Of a stretch of DNA of 64,000 nucleotides, positions 2,473 through 54,301 are shown in pieces. Source of the stretch: Blattabacterium cuenoti (GTDB lineage Bacteria; Bacteroidota; Bacteroidia; Flavobacteriales; Blattabacteriaceae). The notes under the pieces are model-generated. The model saw only the letters and a program-made list of their open reading frames with translations. It was not told where the DNA came from and did not search any database. The position numbers were made by a program, and so were the translations under genes. The stretch lies in NCBI RefSeq assembly GCF_014252275.1, contig NZ_CP059214.1, forward strand, positions 63,906-127,905, read 5' to 3'. The stretch's first letter is position 1; every line of letters begins with the position of its first letter.

Positions 2473-3519
2473 GTGTTAAGAGTTTACAACATTTTAGGAA
2501 ATTTATTAATCTTATTATGCTCAATATGCCTTTCTATTCAATCGAAAAATGATGAAAAAAATAATTTACCTTCGAAATTGGATATATCACATATTATTAT
2601 CGAACATGTAGGAGATTCTCATGAATGGAAAGTGACAGAAAACAGATCGATTTCTTTACCAATTATCTTAATAAAGAAATGGAAGGGGATTGAATTTTTT
2701 TGTTCTTCCAAATTTTATAATAATGAAGTTGTCAAAGGACGATATGGTTATTACAAAATGTTAAACGATAAAATTTATGAAGTGAATTCTATTGGAGATA
2801 GATTTAAAAAAAGAATTATAATCGATATATCCATTACAAAAAATGTTTTATCAGATTTTATCTCTTTTTTTATATTGATCTATTTATTTGTTCGAATGAA
2901 ACATCAATATAAAAATGGTCGAATGAAATGGAATTTTGGAATTCTTTTAGAACAGATCATTGTATTTTTACGTAATGAAATTGCTATTCCCTATATTGGA
3001 AAAAAGGAATATCATCCTTATTTTCCATTTTTATTAACATTATTTTTTTTCATACTTATCAATAATTTAATGGGGATTATTCCATTATTTCCAAATGTTA
3101 CAGGAAATATAAATATTACATTTTCGTTGTCTTTGTTCACATTTTTCGTTACACTTTTTAGTGGAAATAAAAGTTATTGGAAACATACATTATGGATGCC
3201 TAAAGTACCAATACCAGTAAAATTATTGTTATCTCCCATAGAATTAATTGGAATATTAATTCGTCCATTAACTATGTCTATTCGATTATTTGCAAATATT
3301 ACAGCAGGACACATTATTATTTTGAGTTTTATATGTATTATTTTTATTTTTAAGAATATTTTTATTGCTGGATTTTCTGTAATGTTTGGATTGTTTATTT
3401 CTATTTTAGAAGTAATGGTATCATTTCTACAATCTTTTATCTTTACAACTTTATCTGCTTTATTTATAGGAATTTCTATTAAAAAATATCACGAAAAAAA
3501 AATAATTAAAAAATTATGA
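2473..3519 (+). CDS. atpB: F1Fo ATP synthase subunit a
   Basis: Membrane subunit a of the Fo proton channel, 348 residues. The essential arginine is R271 in the TM helix SIRLFANITAGH, and about five hydrophobic segments follow residue 120. The N-terminal ~120 residues form an extra periplasmic extension preceded by a signal-like hydrophobic stretch (NILGNLLILLCSICLSI), a known feature of Bacteroidetes subunit a. No ATG lies near the start of the frame; a GTG at 2473 is the best start because it leaves the signal intact. First gene of atpBEFHAG; its stop overlaps the atpE start by four bases. No atpI or atpDC is nearby, which is normal for the phylum. Confidence 0.93.
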   Translation: MLRVYNILGNLLILLCSICLSIQSKNDEKNNLPSKLDISHIIIEHVGDSHEWKVTENRSISLPIILIKKWKGIEFFCSSKFYNNEVVKGRYGYYKMLNDKIYEVNSIGDRFKKRIIIDISITKNVLSDFISFFILIYLFVRMKHQYKNGRMKWNFGILLEQIIVFLRNEIAIPYIGKKEYHPYFPFLLTLFFFILINNLMGIIPLFPNVTGNINITFSLSLFTFFVTLFSGNKSYWKHTLWMPKVPIPVKLLLSPIELIGILIRPLTMSIRLFANITAGHIIILSFICIIFIFKNIFIAGFSVMFGLFISILEVMVSFLQSFIFTTLSALFIGISIKKYHEKKIIKKL

Positions 3520-3743
3520 ATATAGATTTAACATACGCAGGATTAGCTGCTTTAGGAGCAGGATTATCCGTTATAGGAGCAGGATTAGGAATTGGAAAAA
3601 TTGGAAGTTCGGCCATGGATGCAATTGCTAGACAACCTGAAGCTTCAGATAAAATTCAAAATGCAATGATTATTGCTTCAGCACTTATTGAAGGGGCTTC
3701 TTTATTTGGAATAGTTACAACACTTTTAGCCGTTTTTAAATAA
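3516..3743 (+). CDS. atpE: F1Fo ATP synthase subunit c
   Basis: Ring-forming proteolipid of Fo, 75 residues, two transmembrane hairpin helices joined by the polar loop RQPE (residues 39-42) that contacts F1. The proton-binding carboxylate is Glu59 in ASALIEGASLFG. Glycine-rich first helix (GAGLSVIGAGLGIGKIG) is typical. It overlaps atpB by four bases (ATGA), so the two are translationally coupled, and is followed one base later by atpF. Confidence 0.96.
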   Translation: MNIDLTYAGLAALGAGLSVIGAGLGIGKIGSSAMDAIARQPEASDKIQNAMIIASALIEGASLFGIVTTLLAVFK

Positions 3744-3744
3744 T

Positions 3745-4251
3745 ATGGACTTAGTATCTCCTTCTATTGGATTAATTTTCTGGCATACAATCATTTTTCT
3801 CACACTAATATTTGTTCTTTCTAAATTTGCTTGGAAACCAATTATAAATGTTATTGAACATAGAGAAAAAATCATTAGAATATCATTAGAAAATTCGGAG
3901 AAATTACAAAAAGAAATAAAAAATATGGAAAATAAGAGAAATCATATTCTAAAAGAGGCTTATATAAAAAGAGATTGTATTTTAAGAAAAACGTTACAAA
4001 TAACGAATGAAATGAAACGTAATGCAGAAAAAGAAGGAATTTTAAAAAAAATGGAAATTATTAATAATGCAAAACAAACCATGAAAAACGAAAAAAAAAT
4101 ATATATGCATAAACTTCAATATCAAATAGGAAATATTTCTATTATGATTGCTGAAAAAATATTGGAAAAAAAATTAAATAACGAAAATGATCAAAAAAAA
4201 TTAATCAAAAATCTCATGGAAAAAATAAATTCATCATATATACGTTTATAA
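3745..4251 (+). CDS. atpF: F1Fo ATP synthase subunit b
   Basis: Peripheral stalk subunit b, 168 residues: one N-terminal transmembrane helix (about residues 8-28) and then a long charged alpha-helical, coiled-coil-type domain (residues ~30-168, rich in E, K, N). Both features match the family and its usual length of about 160. It lies one base after atpE and one base before atpH, inside the atp operon. Confidence 0.92.
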   Translation: MDLVSPSIGLIFWHTIIFLTLIFVLSKFAWKPIINVIEHREKIIRISLENSEKLQKEIKNMENKRNHILKEAYIKRDCILRKTLQITNEMKRNAEKEGILKKMEIINNAKQTMKNEKKIYMHKLQYQIGNISIMIAEKILEKKLNNENDQKKLIKNLMEKINSSYIRL

Positions 4252-4252
4252 T

Positions 4253-4794
4253 ATGTTTTTTAATAAAAAAATTATAAGACATTATTCTTCTATTTTATTT
4301 GATTATTCCTCAAAACAAATAGGAAATGATTTTTATAAAGAAACAAAAAAAATTTACGTTCTTATTTCTAAAGATCATATTTTTTATAACATATTGTGTA
4401 CACGGTTATTGACTCCTAAAAAAAAAAAAAAAAATTAGAAAAAATATTCCTTTATTTTCATTCATTAAATGCAAATTTTTTGAAATTAATCATTGATAAA
4501 CAAAAAGGATTTTATTATAAAGAAATTTTATTAGCATATCAAAAACTTTATGAAGAAAAAATAATGAATGTTAAAAAATGTATCATCACCTCTTCTTTTC
4601 CATTAAATGAAAAAGAAAAAGAATTAATATCTATAAAAATGAATTCTTTTGAGGAAAAAAATTGTTATTTACAAATAACAAATCAAATAGATAAGTCTAT
4701 AATTGGTGGATTTTCTATTCAAATAGGATTTAAAAAATTAGATTTGAGCGTTAAAAATCAAATTGAATTAATTAAAAAACAATTTTTAAATTAA
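4253..4794 (+). CDS. atpH: ATP synthase delta subunit, frame broken at an A17 run
   Basis: Delta (OSCP-like) subunit joining F1 to the peripheral stalk. The frame from ATG 4253 runs through residues ending RLLTPKKKKKN and stops at 4436, just after 17 consecutive A (4418-4434). Reading continues in the frame one base back as LEKIFLYFHSLNANFLKLII and on to a stop at 4792-4794. With 18 A the two parts join into a 180-residue protein, the normal length, including the conserved central NFL segment. The gene lies between atpF (one base away) and atpA and should be essential, so I expect it to work through RNA polymerase slippage at the A run, unless the count of A is a sequencing undercall. Confidence 0.9.
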
Positions 4795-4812: not shown

Positions 4813-6414
4813 ATGTCAGAATTACAATACTCTGAAATATCATCAATACTTAAAAAGAAGTTATCAAATTTTCAATTTGAATCAGAATTATATGAATACG
4901 GAATTGTTGTACAAGTAGGGGACGGAATCGTTCAATCTTATGGATTAAATTCGGCATTTTATGGAGAAATAGTTTCTTTTGAAAAAAATATAAAAGGAGT
5001 AGTTTTAAATCTTGAAGAAGATCATGTCGGAATTGTTTTGTTAAACACTTCAAAAAATATTAAGGAAGGAGATTATGTAAGAAGAACAGGAAAATCGTTT
5101 TCTATTAAAGTAGGAGAGGGAATGTTAGGGCGTGTCATTAATATGATGGGAGAACCTATTGATGGTAAAGGGCCAATATTAGGAGATTTATTTGAAATGC
5201 CAATAGAAAGGAAAGCTCCAGAAGTCATTTATAGAGAACCAGTAAACGAGCCACTATATACAGGAATCAAATTTATAGATTCTATGATTCCTATAGGAAA
5301 AGGACAAAGAGAATTGATTATTGGAGATAGACAAACAGGAAAAACTACAATTGCAATCGATACGATTATTAATCAAAATAAATTTTATAAAGAAAAAAAA
5401 CCAGTTTATTGTATTTATGTAGCTATTAGTCAGAAAGCGTCGTCCATTGCAAATACGATGAAAATATTAGAAGAAAAACATGCACTTTCTTATACAGTAA
5501 TAGTTGCATCTAGTGCTTCGGATTCAGCATCTATGCAAGTTTATGCACCTTTTTCAGGCACTTCTATTGGAGAATATTTTCGTGATACTGGTCGATCATC
5601 ATTAATCGTATATGATGATTTATCTAAACAAGCGGCTTCTTATAGAGAAATATCTCTTTTATTGAAACGACCACCAGGAAGAGAAGCATATCCAGGAGAT
5701 GTTTTTTATTTGCATTCTCGTCTTTTGGAACGATCTTCTAAAATCATAAAAGATCAAAAAATGGCTGAAAATATGAATGACGTTCCAAATTCTATTCGTA
5801 AAAAAATTAAAGGAGGAGGTTCATTAACTGCTTTACCTATTATTGAAACCCAATCGGGAGATATTTCTTCCTATATTCCTACTAATGTGATTTCCATAAC
5901 AGATGGACAGATTTTTTTAGAAAAGGAATTATTTAATGCTGGAATAAGACCAGCGATTAATGAAAGTATCTCCGTTTCTCGTGTGGGAGGAGCAGCACAA
6001 ATTAATTCTATGAGAAAAGTTTCTTCAACACTTAAAATGGATCAAGCACAATTCAAGGAATTAGAAGCCTTCTCTAAATTTGGTTCTGAATTAGATCCAT
6101 TTACCATGAAAATTATAAACAAAGGAAAAGTAAATACGGAAATTCTTAAGCAAGAACCTTATCATCCATCTGATATTGCAGATCAGATCGCAATGATATT
6201 TATTGGCAATAAAGGATTAATGGATCAAATTCCTATCTCAAAGATTTCATCTTTTGAAAAAGAATATTTAAAATGTTTAAATCATCAATATTTCGAATAT
6301 TTAACTCTTTTAAGAAAAGGAATTTTTAATGAACAAATATCTAAAATATTAGTCGATGTTGCTTTAACAATAAAAAAAAATCATGTTTATAAAAAAAAAG
6401 ATCCTCATAAATGA
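4813..6414 (+). CDS. atpA: F1Fo ATP synthase subunit alpha
   Basis: Non-catalytic nucleotide-binding subunit of F1, 533 residues. Walker A is GDRQTGKTT at residues 171-179; the Walker B-type strand is [11 protein letters not shown] and the ATPase alpha/beta signature is [15 protein letters not shown]-terminal beta-barrel and C-terminal helical domain are complete. The start ATG (MSELQYSEI) fits the family. It follows atpH by 18 bases and overlaps atpG by four (ATGA). The catalytic beta subunit (atpD) and epsilon (atpC) are not in this window; in Flavobacteriia they sit in a separate locus. Confidence 0.97.
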
Positions 6415-7262
6415 CGAATGTTAAAGAAATTAAAAGGAGAATTTTATCAATGGATAACGTTATAAAAACAACGGAAGCCATGAAAATGATTTCTACTTTA
6501 AAGTTAAAAAAAGTTAAAGAATTATTGCATCATGTACAAACATATCTAAATGATATGCAACTCATTTTTTCAAATTTTTCATCTACTTTAGATATTTATT
6601 TTTATAAAAAAACATGTAGATATTTTTTTCATAAGAATAGATCCAAATCATTATTGATTTTTATTACCTCAAATAGAGGATTATGTGGATCTTTTAATTC
6701 TTTGATTTTTGAAAAGGTTAATCAACTTATAAAAGAAAAAAATGGAAAAAAATATGTGCTTTTTTCTATAGGAAAAAAAGGAAATGAATTTATTCTAAAT
6801 AATAAGTTTCATCGAGCAAAAATACATCATTTTTCTTTTGAAAATTACGATTTATTTTTTCAAGATTTAACGAAGTTATTTTTTAACCGATTTGATTCTA
6901 TATATTTTATATATAATAAGTTACAAACGTCCATGCATGTGGAAACAATAGTAGAAAAAATTCTACCGATTTCTATCCAACAATTTCCTTATCAAAAAAA
7001 CCAAATTCCTCCTATTTTAGGATCATCAAAAAAAAAAATTATCAATTTTTTGATTGAAAAATTACTCATTTTAAAGTGTAAAAAATTTTTTTTACATTCT
7101 TCTTCTTCAGAACATACAGAACGGATGATTTCTATGCATAAAGCATCAGAAAATGCTAAGGATATAAAAGAAAATTTAATTATAAATTACAACAAAGAAA
7201 GACAATATCTGATTACCAAAGAAATACTAGAAATTGTAGGAGGATTAGAATCTTTAAAGTGA
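6411..7262 (+). CDS. atpG: F1Fo ATP synthase subunit gamma
   Basis: Rotor subunit of F1, 283 residues. The N-terminal helix carries the conserved [20 protein letters not shown] pattern and the C-terminal helix ends with an asparagine-rich coiled coil ([12 protein letters not shown]...). The central Rossmann-like part contains the [10 protein letters not shown] motif. The start overlaps the atpA stop (ATGA), which supports translational coupling. Last gene of the atp cluster; trpS follows 31 bases later on the same strand. Confidence 0.95.
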
Positions 7263-20715: not shown

Positions 20716-22433
20716 TTGTAAAAAATTTGTTCAAAAAAATCATTTTTGAAAATGAAAAATATAGGATTTCCTGAATTATTATAACGAGGATTTTTGCAAA
20801 AAAAAAGATTTCTTATCAAGAAAATCATATTACTACTTGATAATAAACATCCATATTTTATAGAAATAAATGAAGAAATGTGATCTATAAGAATTCTTTT
20901 ATTACGTTGACAATCATTATTTAAATGATATTTAAATACATGTTTAAATACTTCAATGAGTAAATTTGTTTTGATGTTTTTAGGAAATGTATGTAAATAC
21001 ATATATTCTGTACAAATAGTAAAACGACATGCTATATAATTTAAATTATTTTCAATTTCATTTAAGAATAATTTATCTTTTTTTAATAAAGAAATTTTAA
21101 TCGGTAAAAAGAAATTCTTAGAAGGAATTTCTTTTTTGTTGATTAACAGTTCATATAATATTTTTTGATGTGCCCTATGTTGATCGACTAACACCATACA
21201 ATTATCATTTCCAAATGTAAATATGATATATTTCTTATTTATTTGAAATATCTCTAATTTTGTTTTTTTAATTTTATTAAAAATATAATGATCAAAATCA
21301 TCTTCTATTACTACAAAAGATTTATATAAATGGTTTATACTATCATTAATACTTTGATTTTTTTTTTTTACAAATTTTAATACGTCATTTCTTAATAATG
21401 GATTCTTATTTTTATAAGAAAAAATATTGTAACGATTTATATTTTTTTTATTGATTTCATACTGATAAAATAATGTTTCTTTTATTTCTTTGTGAATACA
21501 TTCTCCTATTATAGACTCATATTCTATATGAACTTCTTTTTTTAAAGGATGAATATTGAAATTAATCGAAATAGGTCTTATATAAATAAAAATACAGTAA
21601 GAAATTGTATTGATTTTTTTTACAAATCCTTTATAAGATTGAATAATTTTATTATGTAATGATAAATAGTTGACACACCTTTTATTAAGAAATATAAATT
21701 GACTTCCTTTTTTAACAGAGGAATCAGGAATGCTTACGTATCCTTTTATACAAAAGGTTTTTTTTTTTTTATAAATAAATTTAAAACTTCCTTTTATAAG
21801 AGATTCAATTCTTTTTTTCAAAGAATCTTTTTTGAAAAAAAAGACCATTTTCCCATTATGATAAAATCGATAAGTAATTTGTCTATGTGCCAAAATAATC
21901 TTATAAAATTCTTCCACAATATGTAAAAATTCTATTCTAGAAGATTTTAAAAATTTTCTCCTAGCTGGAAACTTATGGAAAATATTTTTTACAGAAATTC
22001 TTGTCCCTTCCAACATATTTATTGGAATTTCCTTTTTCAATTTTCCATCTTCTATGAAAAGATGAACTCCCATTATACTATTTCTAGTTTTTGTTTGTAT
22101 TTCCAACTGAGAAACAAGAGAAATAGAAGATAAGGCTTCTCCACGAAATCCTTTCGTATGAATGTTTAATAAATCTTCATAATTTTTAATTTTTGAAGTA
22201 GCATATCTTTGAATACTCATTTTGGCATCTAAAAAATTCATTCCTATTCCATCATCAAATAATTGAATTAATGTTTTTCCAGCATCTTGTATAAAAAGAT
22301 CGATTTTATTCGCTTGTGCATCTATAGAATTTTCTAATAACTCCTTTACAACAGTAGATGGTCGATCAATAATTTCTCCGGCAGCTATTTGATTAATTAC
22401 TTTTTTAGGTAATACTTTGATTGAATTTTCCAT
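20712..22433 (-). CDS. mutL: DNA mismatch repair protein MutL
   Basis: GHKL ATPase coordinating mismatch repair, about 573 residues. N-terminal motifs: ELLENSIDA, DDGIGM and TKGFRGEALSSI; the C-terminal dimerisation domain is recognisable but divergent. The ATG at 22433 (MENSIKVLP) matches the family; the frame also extends to a TTG at 22451. A run of 13 A in the coding sense (21758-21770) lies in frame around residue 225 (YKKKKTF), so slippage there would truncate the protein. mutS is not in this window; mutY lies three genes upstream on the same strand. Confidence 0.93.
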   Translation of the reverse strand: MENSIKVLPKKVINQIAAGEIIDRPSTVVKELLENSIDAQANKIDLFIQDAGKTLIQLFDDGIGMNFLDAKMSIQRYATSKIKNYEDLLNIHTKGFRGEALSSISLVSQLEIQTKTRNSIMGVHLFIEDGKLKKEIPINMLEGTRISVKNIFHKFPARRKFLKSSRIEFLHIVEEFYKIILAHRQITYRFYHNGKMVFFFKKDSLKKRIESLIKGSFKFIYKKKKTFCIKGYVSIPDSSVKKGSQFIFLNKRCVNYLSLHNKIIQSYKGFVKKINTISYCIFIYIRPISINFNIHPLKKEVHIEYESIIGECIHKEIKETLFYQYEINKKNINRYNIFSYKNKNPLLRNDVLKFVKKKNQSINDSINHLYKSFVVIEDDFDHYIFNKIKKTKLEIFQINKKYIIFTFGNDNCMVLVDQHRAHQKILYELLINKKEIPSKNFFLPIKISLLKKDKLFLNEIENNLNYIACRFTICTEYMYLHTFPKNIKTNLLIEVFKHVFKYHLNNDCQRNKRILIDHISSFISIKYGCLLSSSNMIFLIRNLFFCKNPRYNNSGNPIFFIFKNDFFEQIFYK

Positions 22434-27334: not shown

Positions 27335-28260
27335 TTAAAAAATTATTTCATTAAATGAAAAAATTGTATAAAATCCTTTATTATTGAAATAATTTTTCAT
27401 TCCTTTTCGATAACTTATTAAAACAAAATCTCCACCCCAAGCTCCTAAACTTTTTACTATTCCTAAATAGTCAGGAAAATATATTTCTTGAATCGTAGGA
27501 ATATTTAAAGCATTTGATATAATCATTTCATGTTGGAACAATAACCGTTCAAATTCTTCTAATGTTTTACAAAAAGTTAATTTTAAAGTAATAGAGGATA
27601 TTTCATCTATAAGGCATTTATTAAAAAATCTTTTTTTATAAAAAAATTTGATTCCACAAATAGTACTTTGTTTTTTATTAAGATGTAAAAAATAAAGTTT
27701 ATTCTTAAATGTAGGATGAAATACGATAGTAGTAATTAAAGATTTTTTTTTTTATGTACTTGATAAATAATTGGTCGAGATGTATTTCCACATGCTATAT
27801 CATAACCACTTCCTAAAAAATCATTTCCTATTAAAAGATATGGAGATATATTGGCCCATTTTGCAATATTATTAATTAACGTCGAACTACTTCCTAATCC
27901 CCAATCTATTGAAAATTCTAATTTGGTGTAAACATTGATATTAAAAGAATCTGTCAGAAATTTTTTCTGATTTTTTTTTGACAGTAATAACAATCTTTGT
28001 AAAAAAAGAGATGTTTTTTTTTCTGTTTCGTAATAAATATCTAAAGAAGGAAGTTTAAAAATTGCTTCGAACCAAACATGGTTAAATTCATCTAAACTCT
28101 TCCAGTGTAGTAAAGGATAAGAACAATTTTTTTCATAATTAAAAACAGTTAGTGATTGACCCTTAATGGTAGGTAAAGCAATTCCCATAGATCCACATAA
28201 TAAAAAATATTCCCCCGTTAATAACAATTTTCCATGACAAAAATATTTATATCGATTCAT
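27335..28260 (-). pseudogene. GYDIA-type GHMP kinase, frame broken at an A11 run
   Basis: GHMP-superfamily kinase typical of Bacteroidetes. The upstream part (MNRYKYFCHGKLLLTGEY) has the GHMP ATP motif GLGSSSTLINN and the GSGYDIACG motif that names the family. The frame then stops at 27736 just after 11 A in the coding sense (27743-27753). Reading resumes one base back as SLITTIVFHPTFKNKLYF and runs to the stop at 27335, ending with SLGAWGGDFVLISY. One extra A gives a 308-residue protein, the usual length. Substrate unknown; mevalonate-type and sugar kinases are relatives. The frame also extends to 28290 inside fabD, but ATG 28260 is the better start. Confidence 0.85.
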
Positions 28261-28267
28261 CTTAACA

Positions 28268-29164
28268 TTATTTAACATTGATGTGATCATAATGATTTAT
28301 AATGTTTTTTACCATCTTGATTAAAAATTTTTTTTGACTTATTTCCTCAAATAACGTTGCTCCATCAATCATCATATTTTTTATAGATTGTTTCCACTTG
28401 ACTGGAGAAGTAGTTTGTTCAATGAGATTTTTTTTTATTTCAATACAATTTATAACGGGTTTTCCATGTATATTTTGATATATGGGACATATAGGAGGAT
28501 GAAAATGAATATTCTTGATCAATTTTTCTAATGCTTTTTTAGCGGGTTCCATGATAGGAGAATGAAACGCTCCATGAACAGGAAGGTAAAGGATTTTTTT
28601 AGCACCAATTTGATATAAAATATGACAAACTTTCTTAAGAGTTTGATATTCTCCGGATATCACAATTTGTTTATGTGCATTATAATTAGATGGAACAACA
28701 ATTCTATCACCATTAGTGGAACGCGTTTGTTGATAACAAACGCGTTCCACTAATTCATCTTCTAACCCAAGGATCACTGCCATTCCTCCAGAAATACGTT
28801 CACAAATTTTTTGCATTATTTGAGCTCTTTTTTTTACTAAAATTAATCCTTCTTCAAAAGAAAAAGCATTAATGGCAGCTAAAGCAGAAAATTCTCCAAG
28901 AGAATGTCCAGATACCATATCCGGATAAAAATTGCTTAATGTTTTGATTTTTATGAATGAATAAATATAAATAGAAAGTTGTGTATATTGAGTTTCTTTC
29001 AATATATTCATTGAATGTTTCGAAAACATAATATCAGTTATTTTAAATCCTAAAATATCATTAGATAATTGAAACAATTTTTTAGCTATAAAATATTTTT
29101 TGTACAAATCCGATCCCATTCCTATAAATTGAGAACCTTGACCAGGAAATAAATAAGCTTTCAT
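28268..29164 (-). CDS. fabD: Malonyl-CoA:ACP transacylase
   Basis: Loads malonyl onto acyl carrier protein for fatty-acid synthesis, 298 residues. N-terminal LFPGQGSQFIGMG, nucleophile Ser88 in GHSLGEFSALAA, catalytic His near residue 200 (GAFHSPIMEP). Around residue 140 it carries an unusual insert (QQTRSTNGDR) encoded by a perfect 19-bp inverted repeat (listed separately), placed between the conserved VILGLED strand and VPSNYNAHKQIVISG. It overlaps no upstream gene and is followed seven bases later by the GHMP kinase. Confidence 0.95.
   Translation of the reverse strand: MKAYLFPGQGSQFIGMGSDLYKKYFIAKKLFQLSNDILGFKITDIMFSKHSMNILKETQYTQLSIYIYSFIKIKTLSNFYPDMVSGHSLGEFSALAAINAFSFEEGLILVKKRAQIMQKICERISGGMAVILGLEDELVERVCYQQTRSTNGDRIVVPSNYNAHKQIVISGEYQTLKKVCHILYQIGAKKILYLPVHGAFHSPIMEPAKKALEKLIKNIHFHPPICPIYQNIHGKPVINCIEIKKNLIEQTTSPVKWKQSIKNMMIDGATLFEEISQKKFLIKMVKNIINHYDHINVK
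28713..28753. repeat. Perfect 19-bp inverted repeat inside fabD
   Basis: Left arm TTAGTGGAACGCGTTTGTT (28713-28731), three-base loop GAT, right arm its exact reverse complement (28735-28753). It is relatively GC-rich for this genome and sits wholly in the fabD coding sequence in a surface loop region. The mRNA could form a very strong hairpin. Confidence 0.95.
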
Positions 29165-48628: not shown

Positions 48629-48649
48629 TATAAACAGTTAGGTTGAGTG

Positions 48650-50008
48650 ATGAAAAAAAAAGAACATTTTTTTTTAAAAATTTACAAATTGGGAATTATA
48701 AAATTTGGAGATTTTCTTTTGAAAAGTGGAATACACACTCCAATGTACATTGATTTTCGACCTGTAGCCTCTTGTCCAGATTTATTAATAAAACTTTCAG
48801 ATTTAATTTTATATGAAATATCTCATTCCAACTTTGAATTAATTTGTGGAGTTCCATATGCTGCATTACCTATAGCTACGGCACTATCTATACAATCAAA
48901 AATTCCTTTAATTATTAAGAGAAAAGAAAATAAAGGATACGGAACGCAGCGAATGATTGAAGGAATTTATAAAAAAGGACAACAATGTTTACTTTTAGAA
49001 GATGTGATTACAAGTGGAGATAGTTTATTAGAAACCATTGAAGACATTGAATCGGAAGGGTTAATTGTAAAACAAATAGTGACTATTCTTGATAGAGAAC
49101 AAGGAGGTTTGGAACATATAAAGAAAAAAGGATACAAAATACAAACATTATTTCGTATAGAAAACATATTCAAAATATTAGAAAAGAAAAATTTTTTAAA
49201 AGAAAAAGAATTGCAAACTATGCGATTATTTATCATGAAAAAAGATAATGGAAGTTTTTATAAACGAAAATCTTATGAAGAAAAAAAAAAAAAAATTCCC
49301 CATCCTATAGCAAAAAAACTTATTGAAATAACATTGGAAAAAAAAACGAATCTGATATTTTCTGCAGATTTAACAGAGTCAAATAAAATATTAAAATTAA
49401 TCCATCTCATTGGAGATATGATCTGTGTATTAAAATTACACGTCGACATTATCACTGATTTTTCTCCATCTTTTATTAGAAAAATAAAAGAAATTTCGAT
49501 AGAAAAAAAATTTTTATTATTTGAAGATAGAAAATTTTGTGATGTAGGACATACCAATTTTCTTCAATTTCATTACGGAATGCATAAAATATCTTCCTGG
49601 GCAGATATTATTACGGTACATGTCCTATCAGGAAGACAAAGTATAAAAACACTGAATATCCCTCCTAATATAGGTTTAATTACTATATCTGAAATGTCTT
49701 CTTACGGGAATTTGTTTAATGACAACTATGTACGAAATGCATTAGATATTTCTTTAAAAAATTCAAAAGTTATTGGCACTGTCGCACAAAGAAAAGTAGA
49801 TAATCGATTACTGTTATTTACGCCGGGAATTCATTTGTATGAAGAACAAAAATTAGGAAATACTTATATGACTCCTAAAACTGCATTTCAAAAAAAAGGA
49901 AGTGACTTTATTATTGTTGGAAAAGGGATTTATCAGTCTGATAATCCCATAAAAATTGCATCAATTTATAGAAAAAAGGCTTGGGAAGCTTACGAATCTA
50001 GCTTGTAA
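48650..50008 (+). CDS. pyrEF: Fused orotate phosphoribosyltransferase / OMP decarboxylase (UMP synthase)
   Basis: Last two steps of UMP synthesis in one 452-residue chain from ATG 48650 (a GTG at 48647 is also possible; positions here count from that GTG). N-terminal OPRT, residues ~1-195, with the PRPP motif LLLEDVITSGDS at 115-126. C-terminal OMP decarboxylase, ~215-453, with catalytic D294-K296-D299 in FEDRKFCDVGHT. The decarboxylase resembles eukaryotic UMPS (SSWADIITVHV, ISEMSSYGNL, TPGIHL, KAWEAYESSL) more than bacterial PyrF. The junction is encoded by an in-frame run of 15 A (49281-49295; K213-K216). One base more or less there gives an early stop, leaving OPRT alone. Confidence 0.93.
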   Translation: MKKKEHFFLKIYKLGIIKFGDFLLKSGIHTPMYIDFRPVASCPDLLIKLSDLILYEISHSNFELICGVPYAALPIATALSIQSKIPLIIKRKENKGYGTQRMIEGIYKKGQQCLLLEDVITSGDSLLETIEDIESEGLIVKQIVTILDREQGGLEHIKKKGYKIQTLFRIENIFKILEKKNFLKEKELQTMRLFIMKKDNGSFYKRKSYEEKKKKIPHPIAKKLIEITLEKKTNLIFSADLTESNKILKLIHLIGDMICVLKLHVDIITDFSPSFIRKIKEISIEKKFLLFEDRKFCDVGHTNFLQFHYGMHKISSWADIITVHVLSGRQSIKTLNIPPNIGLITISEMSSYGNLFNDNYVRNALDISLKNSKVIGTVAQRKVDNRLLLFTPGIHLYEEQKLGNTYMTPKTAFQKKGSDFIIVGKGIYQSDNPIKIASIYRKKAWEAYESSL

Positions 50009-52567: not shown

Positions 52568-53079
52568 ATGAATAACAATAGGAAAATTCATATTTATACA
52601 GATGGATCTTCAAGAGGAAATCCTGGGGTTGGAGGATATGGTATTTTTATCGAAATATTTTCGAATAATTCTCATTTTTATAAAACCACTATTCTGAATG
52701 AAGGATACCGTTATACAACAAATAATAGAATGGAATTATTAGCAATTATCATTGGATTAGAAAAAATAAAAAAAAAAAATATTCTGTATCAATATTTACT
52801 GATTCAAAATATGTTGTTAATGCAGTGAAAAATCATTGGATTGATAAGTGGAAAAAGAATAATTTTTATAAAAAAAAAAATATAGATTTATGGAAAAGAT
52901 TTATCAAAATATTTAATAGAAATTTAGTTACATTTCATTGGATTAAATCACATAATAATCACTATATCAATGATTATTGTGACCAAATTTCTTTACAATC
53001 CTCAAAAAAAAAGAATCTAAAAATTGATGATGTATACGAAAAACATCTATTAAAAATTGGGTTAAACCATCAAAGATAA
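52568..53079 (+). pseudogene. rnhA: Ribonuclease HI, frame broken at an A12 run
   Basis: RNase HI degrades RNA in RNA-DNA hybrids. The first part MNNNRKIHIYTDGSSRGNPG...NNRMELLAIIIGLEKI holds the first active-site Asp and the Glu. After 12 A (52768-52779) the frame runs off to a stop at 52828. One base back, the sequence reads SVSIFTDSKYVVNAVKNHWIDKWKK, with the third catalytic Asp, and continues to NDYCDQIS, with the last Asp, ending at 53079. One extra A yields 170 residues, a normal length with all four DEDD residues. It may be rescued by slippage or be an early pseudogene. Last 10 bases overlap the opposite-strand methyltransferase gene. Confidence 0.88.
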
Positions 53080-53845
53080 TTTCTTTGTCTCATAATTTCA
53101 TATCCTATGATCGACATTGCATTACTTACGTTTAATGAATCGATATATCCAAACATAGGAATATGTAAAACTTTATGTGATTCACGAAACCAAATATGAG
53201 ATAAACCCTTATTTTCGGATCCAAGAACCAATGCTATTTTAGAATGGGTAAATTGACATTTGTATAAATTCGTTGATTTTTGATTACATCCTGTCGTAAA
53301 AATTTGGAATTTATTTTTTTTTAACCATTTTATTACACAATTTATTTTATTTTCTATATAGATATTGATGCTAAAAACATATCCTAAACTACATCTAATT
53401 ACATTAGGATTAAAAATATATGTCTTGATATTTGATAATATAATCATATCAAATCCAATCGCTAAAGATGTTCGGAAAATAGCACCTAAATTTCCCGGAT
53501 TTTCTATTCCATCTAATACAAGTAAAGAATAATCTTTTTCTTTTAAAAAATTAATATTTTTTAATTGATGATTCCATCTCCTTTTTTCTTGAAACAATGC
53601 TACTATTCCACCAGAATTTTCTCTGTAGGAAATCTTTTTAAATACTTTCTTATTTATACAATATGTAATCTTGTAATATGGTTGAACTATACGTTGATGA
53701 TCAAATATAGAATTGCATATGAATATTGTGTTTGGAATAAATTGATTTTTAATAGCTAATAGAAATTCTTTTACTCCTTCTACAAGAAAAAGACCTTTTT
53801 TTTTTTATAAATTTTTTTTAAAAAATTTATTTTTGTATTTTTCAT
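53070..53845 (-). pseudogene. TrmH/SpoU-family RNA methyltransferase, frame broken at an A11 run
   Basis: SAM-dependent 2'-O-methyltransferase. The intact part reads GLFLVEGVKEFLLAI (substrate-binding domain), NSGGIVALFQEK, then the SPOUT knot motifs DGIENPGNLGAIFRTS, LVLGSENKGLS and IPMFGYIDSLNVSNAMSI. It has no ATG in its own frame: going upstream it reaches 11 A in the coding sense (53796-53806) and a stop. An ATG at 53845 (MKNTKINFLKKIYKKKK) lies one frame away and joins it if one A is added, giving 258 residues. The frame from 53597 alone would lack the N-terminal domain. Convergent overlap of 10 bases with rnhA. Confidence 0.85.
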
Positions 53846-53861
53846 GGTTTCTATTCTTTTC

Positions 53862-54301
53862 ATGACTATGGAATTTATAAAAAAAAATAACAGAGACGTT
53901 ATTTATATGAAAATGGCGATTGAGCAATCAACATATTCTGTTTGTAAAAAAAAAAAGTTGGTGCAGTAATTGTTTATGATAATAAAATTGTATCTCATGG
54001 GTATAATCAAACTCCATACGGATATCATGGAAAGTGCGAAGATGTTTATGGAGATACAAAATGGTATGTGATTCATGCAGAAGCTAATGCCATTTTTAAA
54101 CTAGATGCAAGATTTCCAAAATTTTTCAATCATTCGATAATATACATTACACATTTTCCGTGCAAAGAATGCAGTAAATTAATATATTTATCAAATATTA
54201 AAAGGGTTTGTTATTTATACCCTAAAGAAGGAGTAAAAGAAACGATAAATTTTTTCAAAAAAGTTCATATATCTATAAATAGTATTTCTATTTTATCTTA
54301 A
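53862..54301 (+). pseudogene. dCMP/cytidine deaminase family protein, frame broken at an A11 run
   Basis: Zinc deaminase resembling flavobacterial dCMP deaminase (dCMP to dUMP, feeding thyA at 61.8 kb). The N-terminal part MTMEFIKKNNRDVIYMKMAIEQ...YSVC ends at 11 A (53946-53956). Without a correction the frame stops at once; one base back it reads VGAVIVYDNKIVSHGYNQTP, then CEDVYGDTKWYVIHAEANAIF with the HAE zinc site and PCKECSK with the two cysteines. One extra A gives 146 residues, the usual size. An in-frame ATG at 53844 is an alternative start and would overlap the divergent methyltransferase start. Confidence 0.86.

Follow-up and report, generated by a model that had tools for sequence, protein, structure and literature searches.

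A poly(A)-split atpH in Blattabacterium, probably a tolerated frameshift of a known kind, and a dCMP deaminase frameshift maintained in most of the genus

Ribosomes undergo −1 frameshifting on the slippery heptamer A_AAA_AAG in Escherichia coli dnaX and in IS elements. In Buchnera and Blochmannia, 12 to 50% of the transcripts of genes carrying a frameshift at a homopolymer are corrected (reviewed in PMC5009743). Insertions at Buchnera homopolymers climb exponentially with run length, and a transcription error that restores a frame was not reported in that work (PMC5574713). The catalogue of Blochmannia frameshifts, some of which are private to one genome, proposes correction but does not show it (PMC3017870). 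We analyzed a 64,000-nucleotide stretch of the genome of Blattabacterium cuenoti, an endosymbiont of cockroaches (the stretch is here referred to as the window), in which atpH, encoding the delta subunit of ATP synthase, is split at a run of 17 A residues. Like genes of the slippage type, atpH has a single frameshift at a long coding homopolymer, and its intact flanks are homologous to complete orthologues. The frameshift is real as sequence and probably belongs with the tolerated poly(A) frameshifts already described.

The A17 run, which a first-pass annotation had placed inside atpH as the longest homopolymer in the window, was confirmed in the assembly (Table 1); the next longest are an A15 run at 49281 and a T13 run at 21758. 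From base composition alone, about 0.003 such A-runs are expected per 64 kb, so the A17 run is not a product of chance. The zero frame of atpH opens at ATG 4253 and closes immediately downstream of the run, and the remainder of delta lies in the −1 frame, which ends at a stop at 4792–4794. When read through, atpH matches TIGR01145 over its full length (64.1 bits, against a cutoff of 57.5). PF00213 matched a single delta gene in the whole genome, over the cutoff and with the stop inside it, which rules out a second intact copy. In an alignment to 7p2y_d, the best solved relative of the read-through protein, the break falls within the helical N-terminal domain and not at a domain border. Searches of GTDB r220 with the window's atpH protein found no close relatives, and searches of a plasmid collection found none. 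The earlier statement that the other atp genes of the window are complete also holds, as atpB, atpE, atpF, atpA, and atpG are all open. That atpH alone is split is correct among these atp genes but not across the window, where four more genes are split at poly(A) tracts. Outside the window, there is an open AtpD-like frame at 507503–509047 of the genome; a motif search of the genome for atpC gave no match. The A15 run (49281–49295) lies in frame near the junction of a 453-aa ORF resembling a pyrE-pyrF fusion (48647–50008, plus strand).

Table 1. Coordinates of the ATP synthase genes and of the genes split at poly(A) tracts (window positions unless stated otherwise)
Feature	Position	Strand	Remarks
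atpB	2473..3519	+	Intact; name from atp operon position
atpE	3516..3743	+	Intact; name from atp operon position
atpF	3745..4251	+	Intact
atpH, upstream frame	4253..4438	+	61 codons; stop TAG 4436–4438
A17 run	4418..4434	+	Zero frame CCT AAA AAA AAA AAA AAA AAT TAG; 1 base short of relatives' frame
atpH, downstream frame	4435..4794	+	119 codons without further stop, encoding the remainder of delta (OSCP family)
atpA	4813..6414	+	Intact
atpG	6411..7262	+	Intact; in-frame A11 at 7028–7038
GHMP kinase, GYDIA type	27335..28290	-	Two frames meeting at A11 (plus-strand T11, 27743–27753); 1 base short
rnhA	52568..53079	+	Two frames joined at A12 (52768–52779); 1 base short
TrmH-like RNA methyltransferase	53070..53863	-	Two frames meeting at A11 (plus-strand T11, 53796–53806); 1 base short
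dCMP deaminase	53868..54301	+	Two frames joined at A11 (53946–53956); zero frame TGT AAA AAA AAA AAG
murD-like gene	G000 232382 (outside window)		Split at A10; 1 base short; name from sequence
Phosphopantetheinyl-transferase-like gene	G000 242243 (outside window)		Split at A10; 1 base short; name from sequence

We compared the window genome (G000; 561,052 bp) with 48 other Blattabacterium genomes, giving a set of 49. In all 48 relatives, atpH is a single open frame, often with an A8 to A10 run at or near the position of the A17 run; G000 is the only genome in which it is split. When the run is read in whole codons, the G000 delta sequence aligns to those of the relatives without gaps (LLTPKKKKKKLEKIF / LLTSEKKIFYLEKIL), which indicates that the A17 run is one base short. 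Two origins for the long run were considered and rejected. Expansion of a lysine run was set aside because the alignment suggests that the A17 run took the place of other codons at equal length. Loss of mismatch repair was rejected on the presence of mutS in 49/49 genomes and of an open mutL in the window, the latter with in-frame A12 and A13 runs. The downstream frame of atpH contains no second stop or indel. Its mean outgroup distance relative to atpA is 2.30 (1.99 to 2.56 in the seven nearest genomes); it thus diverges no faster than the same part in relatives, as would also be seen after a recent break. Neither the additional disabling mutations nor the faster evolution that mark a pseudogene were found, and, considering that the delta of even the nearest relative (G009) is about half different, a rescued gene and a recently broken one are indistinguishable by this comparison.

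We surveyed the G000 genome, minus 13.5 kb, for frameshifts at coding runs of at least 10 A residues by comparison with the ORFs of one relative (G042) and then with five genomes. Six clear frameshifts resulted, in atpH (A17), the GHMP kinase gene (A11), rnhA (A12), the dCMP deaminase gene (A11), the murD-like gene (A10), and the phosphopantetheinyl-transferase-like gene (A10). The TrmH-like gene (A11), overlooked by the survey, was added by eye as a seventh; five of these seven genes, split at coding runs of A10 to A17, are in the window. All seven are short by exactly one base, for which the two-sided P value is approximately 0.016 if both phases are equally likely. Contraction-biased mutation could be another source of this shared phase; the two T-run cases in the survey were one base long and are too few for deciding on such a bias. 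Among the coding A-runs of 10 or more in the survey, which missed the TrmH-like run, 150 of 156 were in frame, including 9/9 of those from A13 to A15, indicating that run lengths are constrained and that the assembly can mostly be trusted over this range. Frameshift calls based on antisense or N-terminally extended ORFs (for example, at window positions 3741, 25373, and 40652) were dropped. A small ORF (116 aa in G003) appears to be split at A10 or A11, one base short, in three genomes (window, ~50859; G025, 23774 on the minus strand of an 80-kb stretch; G007, 24572 on the minus strand) and is a possible second shared frameshift. Elsewhere in G000, low-complexity junk with a repeated seed (A20/A20/A38) occupies 523836–524003 in a prfB-like coding region and is a probable assembly artifact; many overlapping A15 matches also occur in G010, G030, and G031. 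At 1720–1905 of G000, an A22 run followed by a run of N lies inside a long open frame; this run exceeds A17 but adjoins the N gap.

The dCMP deaminase frameshift is the finding worth following. Its poly(A) run is out of frame in 33 of the 49 genomes (A11 in 30 and A10 in 3), and the gene is in frame in the other 16, through A12 in 9, among them G042, and an interrupted run in 7. The A_AAA_AAG heptamer stands in the zero frame of all 30 A11 genomes, and in 28 of them the zero-frame sequence is TGT (or TGC) AAA AAA AAA AAG TAG, with the stop directly 3′ of the heptamer. From the A11 run, the conserved VGAxIV strand is reached through an added A or a −1 shift. In most of these genomes, the downstream frame is open for only about three codons before this strand, and the N terminus of the protein therefore cannot come from an internal start. 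All 49 genomes retain the zinc motif (HAE..PCxxC). The median dN/dS of the downstream part is 0.38 among A11 pairs and 0.32 among in-frame pairs, the pairs not being independent and one close pair (G006/G014), with few changes, giving a ratio close to 1. Mapped on an atpA tree, the four run states change at least 15 times, and the clade that includes G000 (eight genomes; support, 100/99) has A11 throughout (8/8). The downstream part is under purifying selection and the frameshift is maintained, unlike in a dead gene. A literature search of limited coverage found no paper joining Blattabacterium and dCMP deaminase.

Taken together, the conserved dCMP deaminase frameshift and the direction common to all seven G000 frameshifts indicate that poly(A) slippage very probably yields functional protein in Blattabacterium. 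Either the addition of one A or a −1 shift would restore the frame at a run that is one base short. Both transcriptional insertion of a single A and −1 ribosomal slippage fit the data. In favor of transcription, a −1 shift cannot restore the frame of the A10 dCMP deaminase genes of three genomes, and a stimulatory RNA structure was not seen at this gene: downstream of the run in the 30 A11 genomes, the mean z score was −0.09 and the consensus fold was empty. In favor of the ribosome, the slippery heptamer at dCMP deaminase is perfect. A zero-frame heptamer of the form X_XXY_YYZ is present in both genes, as A_AAA_AAA in atpH and as A_AAA_AAG in dCMP deaminase. Tentatively, and at somewhat short of an even likelihood, we propose that poly(A) slippage is a standing part of Blattabacterium gene expression: a dCMP deaminase needing a slip at A11 (A_AAA_AAG UAG) would have persisted across most of the genus, and other genes, atpH included, would have drifted into the one-base-short phase because the machinery cures that phase. 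The proposal of functional slippage in the first-pass annotation is therefore well supported at the level of the genus and plausible at atpH, which is split in 1 of 49 genomes. As for atpH being the best candidate for it, dCMP deaminase, in the same window, is the stronger one.

For atpH itself, the reading that we prefer, and regard as evenly poised between right and wrong, is that the gene is rescued by slippage and kept rather than dead, as one of a set of tolerated poly(A) frameshifts. Normal decoding of the short tract would give the 61-residue fragment, and a share of expression events would give full-length delta. RNA polymerase would add one A in copying the tract (A17 to A18 in the mRNA), and/or ribosomes would slip back one base on A_AAA_AAA, with the same protein resulting either way. 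The occurrence of slippage at atpH, the choice between these mechanisms, and the amount of delta made are the parts that we infer. The intact atpH of the relatives, the undamaged downstream frame, the lack of another delta gene, the phase shared by the seven split genes, and the dCMP deaminase case all point to rescue. Against it, the split occurs in one genome only, and assemblies are unreliable in counting runs of more than about 15, with A17 exceeding the range (to A15) over which the frame was checked in this one.

These last points bear on an alternative that is less likely than rescue but has to be taken seriously, in which the tract in the symbiont DNA is A18 or varies in length, the assembled A17 reflects a miscounted consensus or a single allele of a heterogeneous population, and atpH is intact in most copies. 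Runs of A17 tend to stutter in library PCR and in sequencing. The restriction of the split to G000 among 49 genomes would be explained in this way, and the assembly does have artifacts at poly(A) (A20/A20/A38 near 523.8–524.0 kb and the N gap after A22). However, coding runs of A13 to A15 are in frame in 9/9 cases in the same assembly, so miscounts are infrequent up to 15, and the one-base shortfall of the six other genes occurs at A10 to A12, lengths that are well resolved. A recent true loss of function, with atpH a young pseudogene and an ATP synthase that is impaired or works without complete delta, appears improbable, although it too would account for a split that relatives do not share. 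Delta is required for holding F1 to the stator, atpH has no other damage, the other atp genes seen are all open, including the AtpD-like frame, and the lineage tolerates poly(A) frameshifts in genes under selection. Such a loss would be in keeping with the erosion of Blattabacterium genomes, in one of which, as published, atpG is listed as a pseudogene (PMC6039017).

It was also proposed that the dose of delta is governed by the mix of slipped and unslipped mRNAs. This is very improbable: apart from the location of the run within an operon, nothing speaks for it, and the split, for which no sign of selection was seen, is absent in 48/48 relatives, whereas conservation would be expected of a regulatory device. 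Least probable of all is a working subunit assembled from the 61-residue fragment and a second protein started at the internal TTG 4480, where a 104-aa ORF does begin, since the break is inside the N-terminal helical domain and such a start would skip the first 15 downstream codons.

If rescue by slippage is correct, annotations of the genomes of such symbionts record as dead genes that are alive, and the phase bias, with every run one base short, indicates the direction of the cure. By itself, atpH would be a small gain, one further case of a known phenomenon. The dCMP deaminase gene, frameshifted in 33 of 49 genomes and still selected, allows a direct test of whether poly(A) frameshifts are fixed features or accidents that are tolerated.

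The slippage-corrected genes of Buchnera and Blochmannia (PMC5009743; PMC3017870) are the closest to atpH: each belongs to an AT-rich insect endosymbiont and has a single frameshift at a long coding A-run, with the rest of the gene intact; some of those frameshifts are common to several species. The atpH frameshift differs in being private to one genome and in its length, A17, the tracts described there reaching up to 12. Those cases were shown on cDNA, whereas the present one is known from DNA, and Buchnera and Blochmannia are Gammaproteobacteria, whereas Blattabacterium belongs to the Bacteroidota. Relative to F-type delta/OSCP subunits (PF00213 and TIGR01145), the read-through atpH product corresponds to the whole length but is encoded in two frames. 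With dnaX and the IS elements, the dCMP deaminase genes of the 30 A11 genomes share A_AAA_AAG, but no downstream stimulatory structure was found in them, and the three A10 genes are beyond the reach of a −1 shift; atpH offers A_AAA_AAA, its run ending in AAT instead of AAG.
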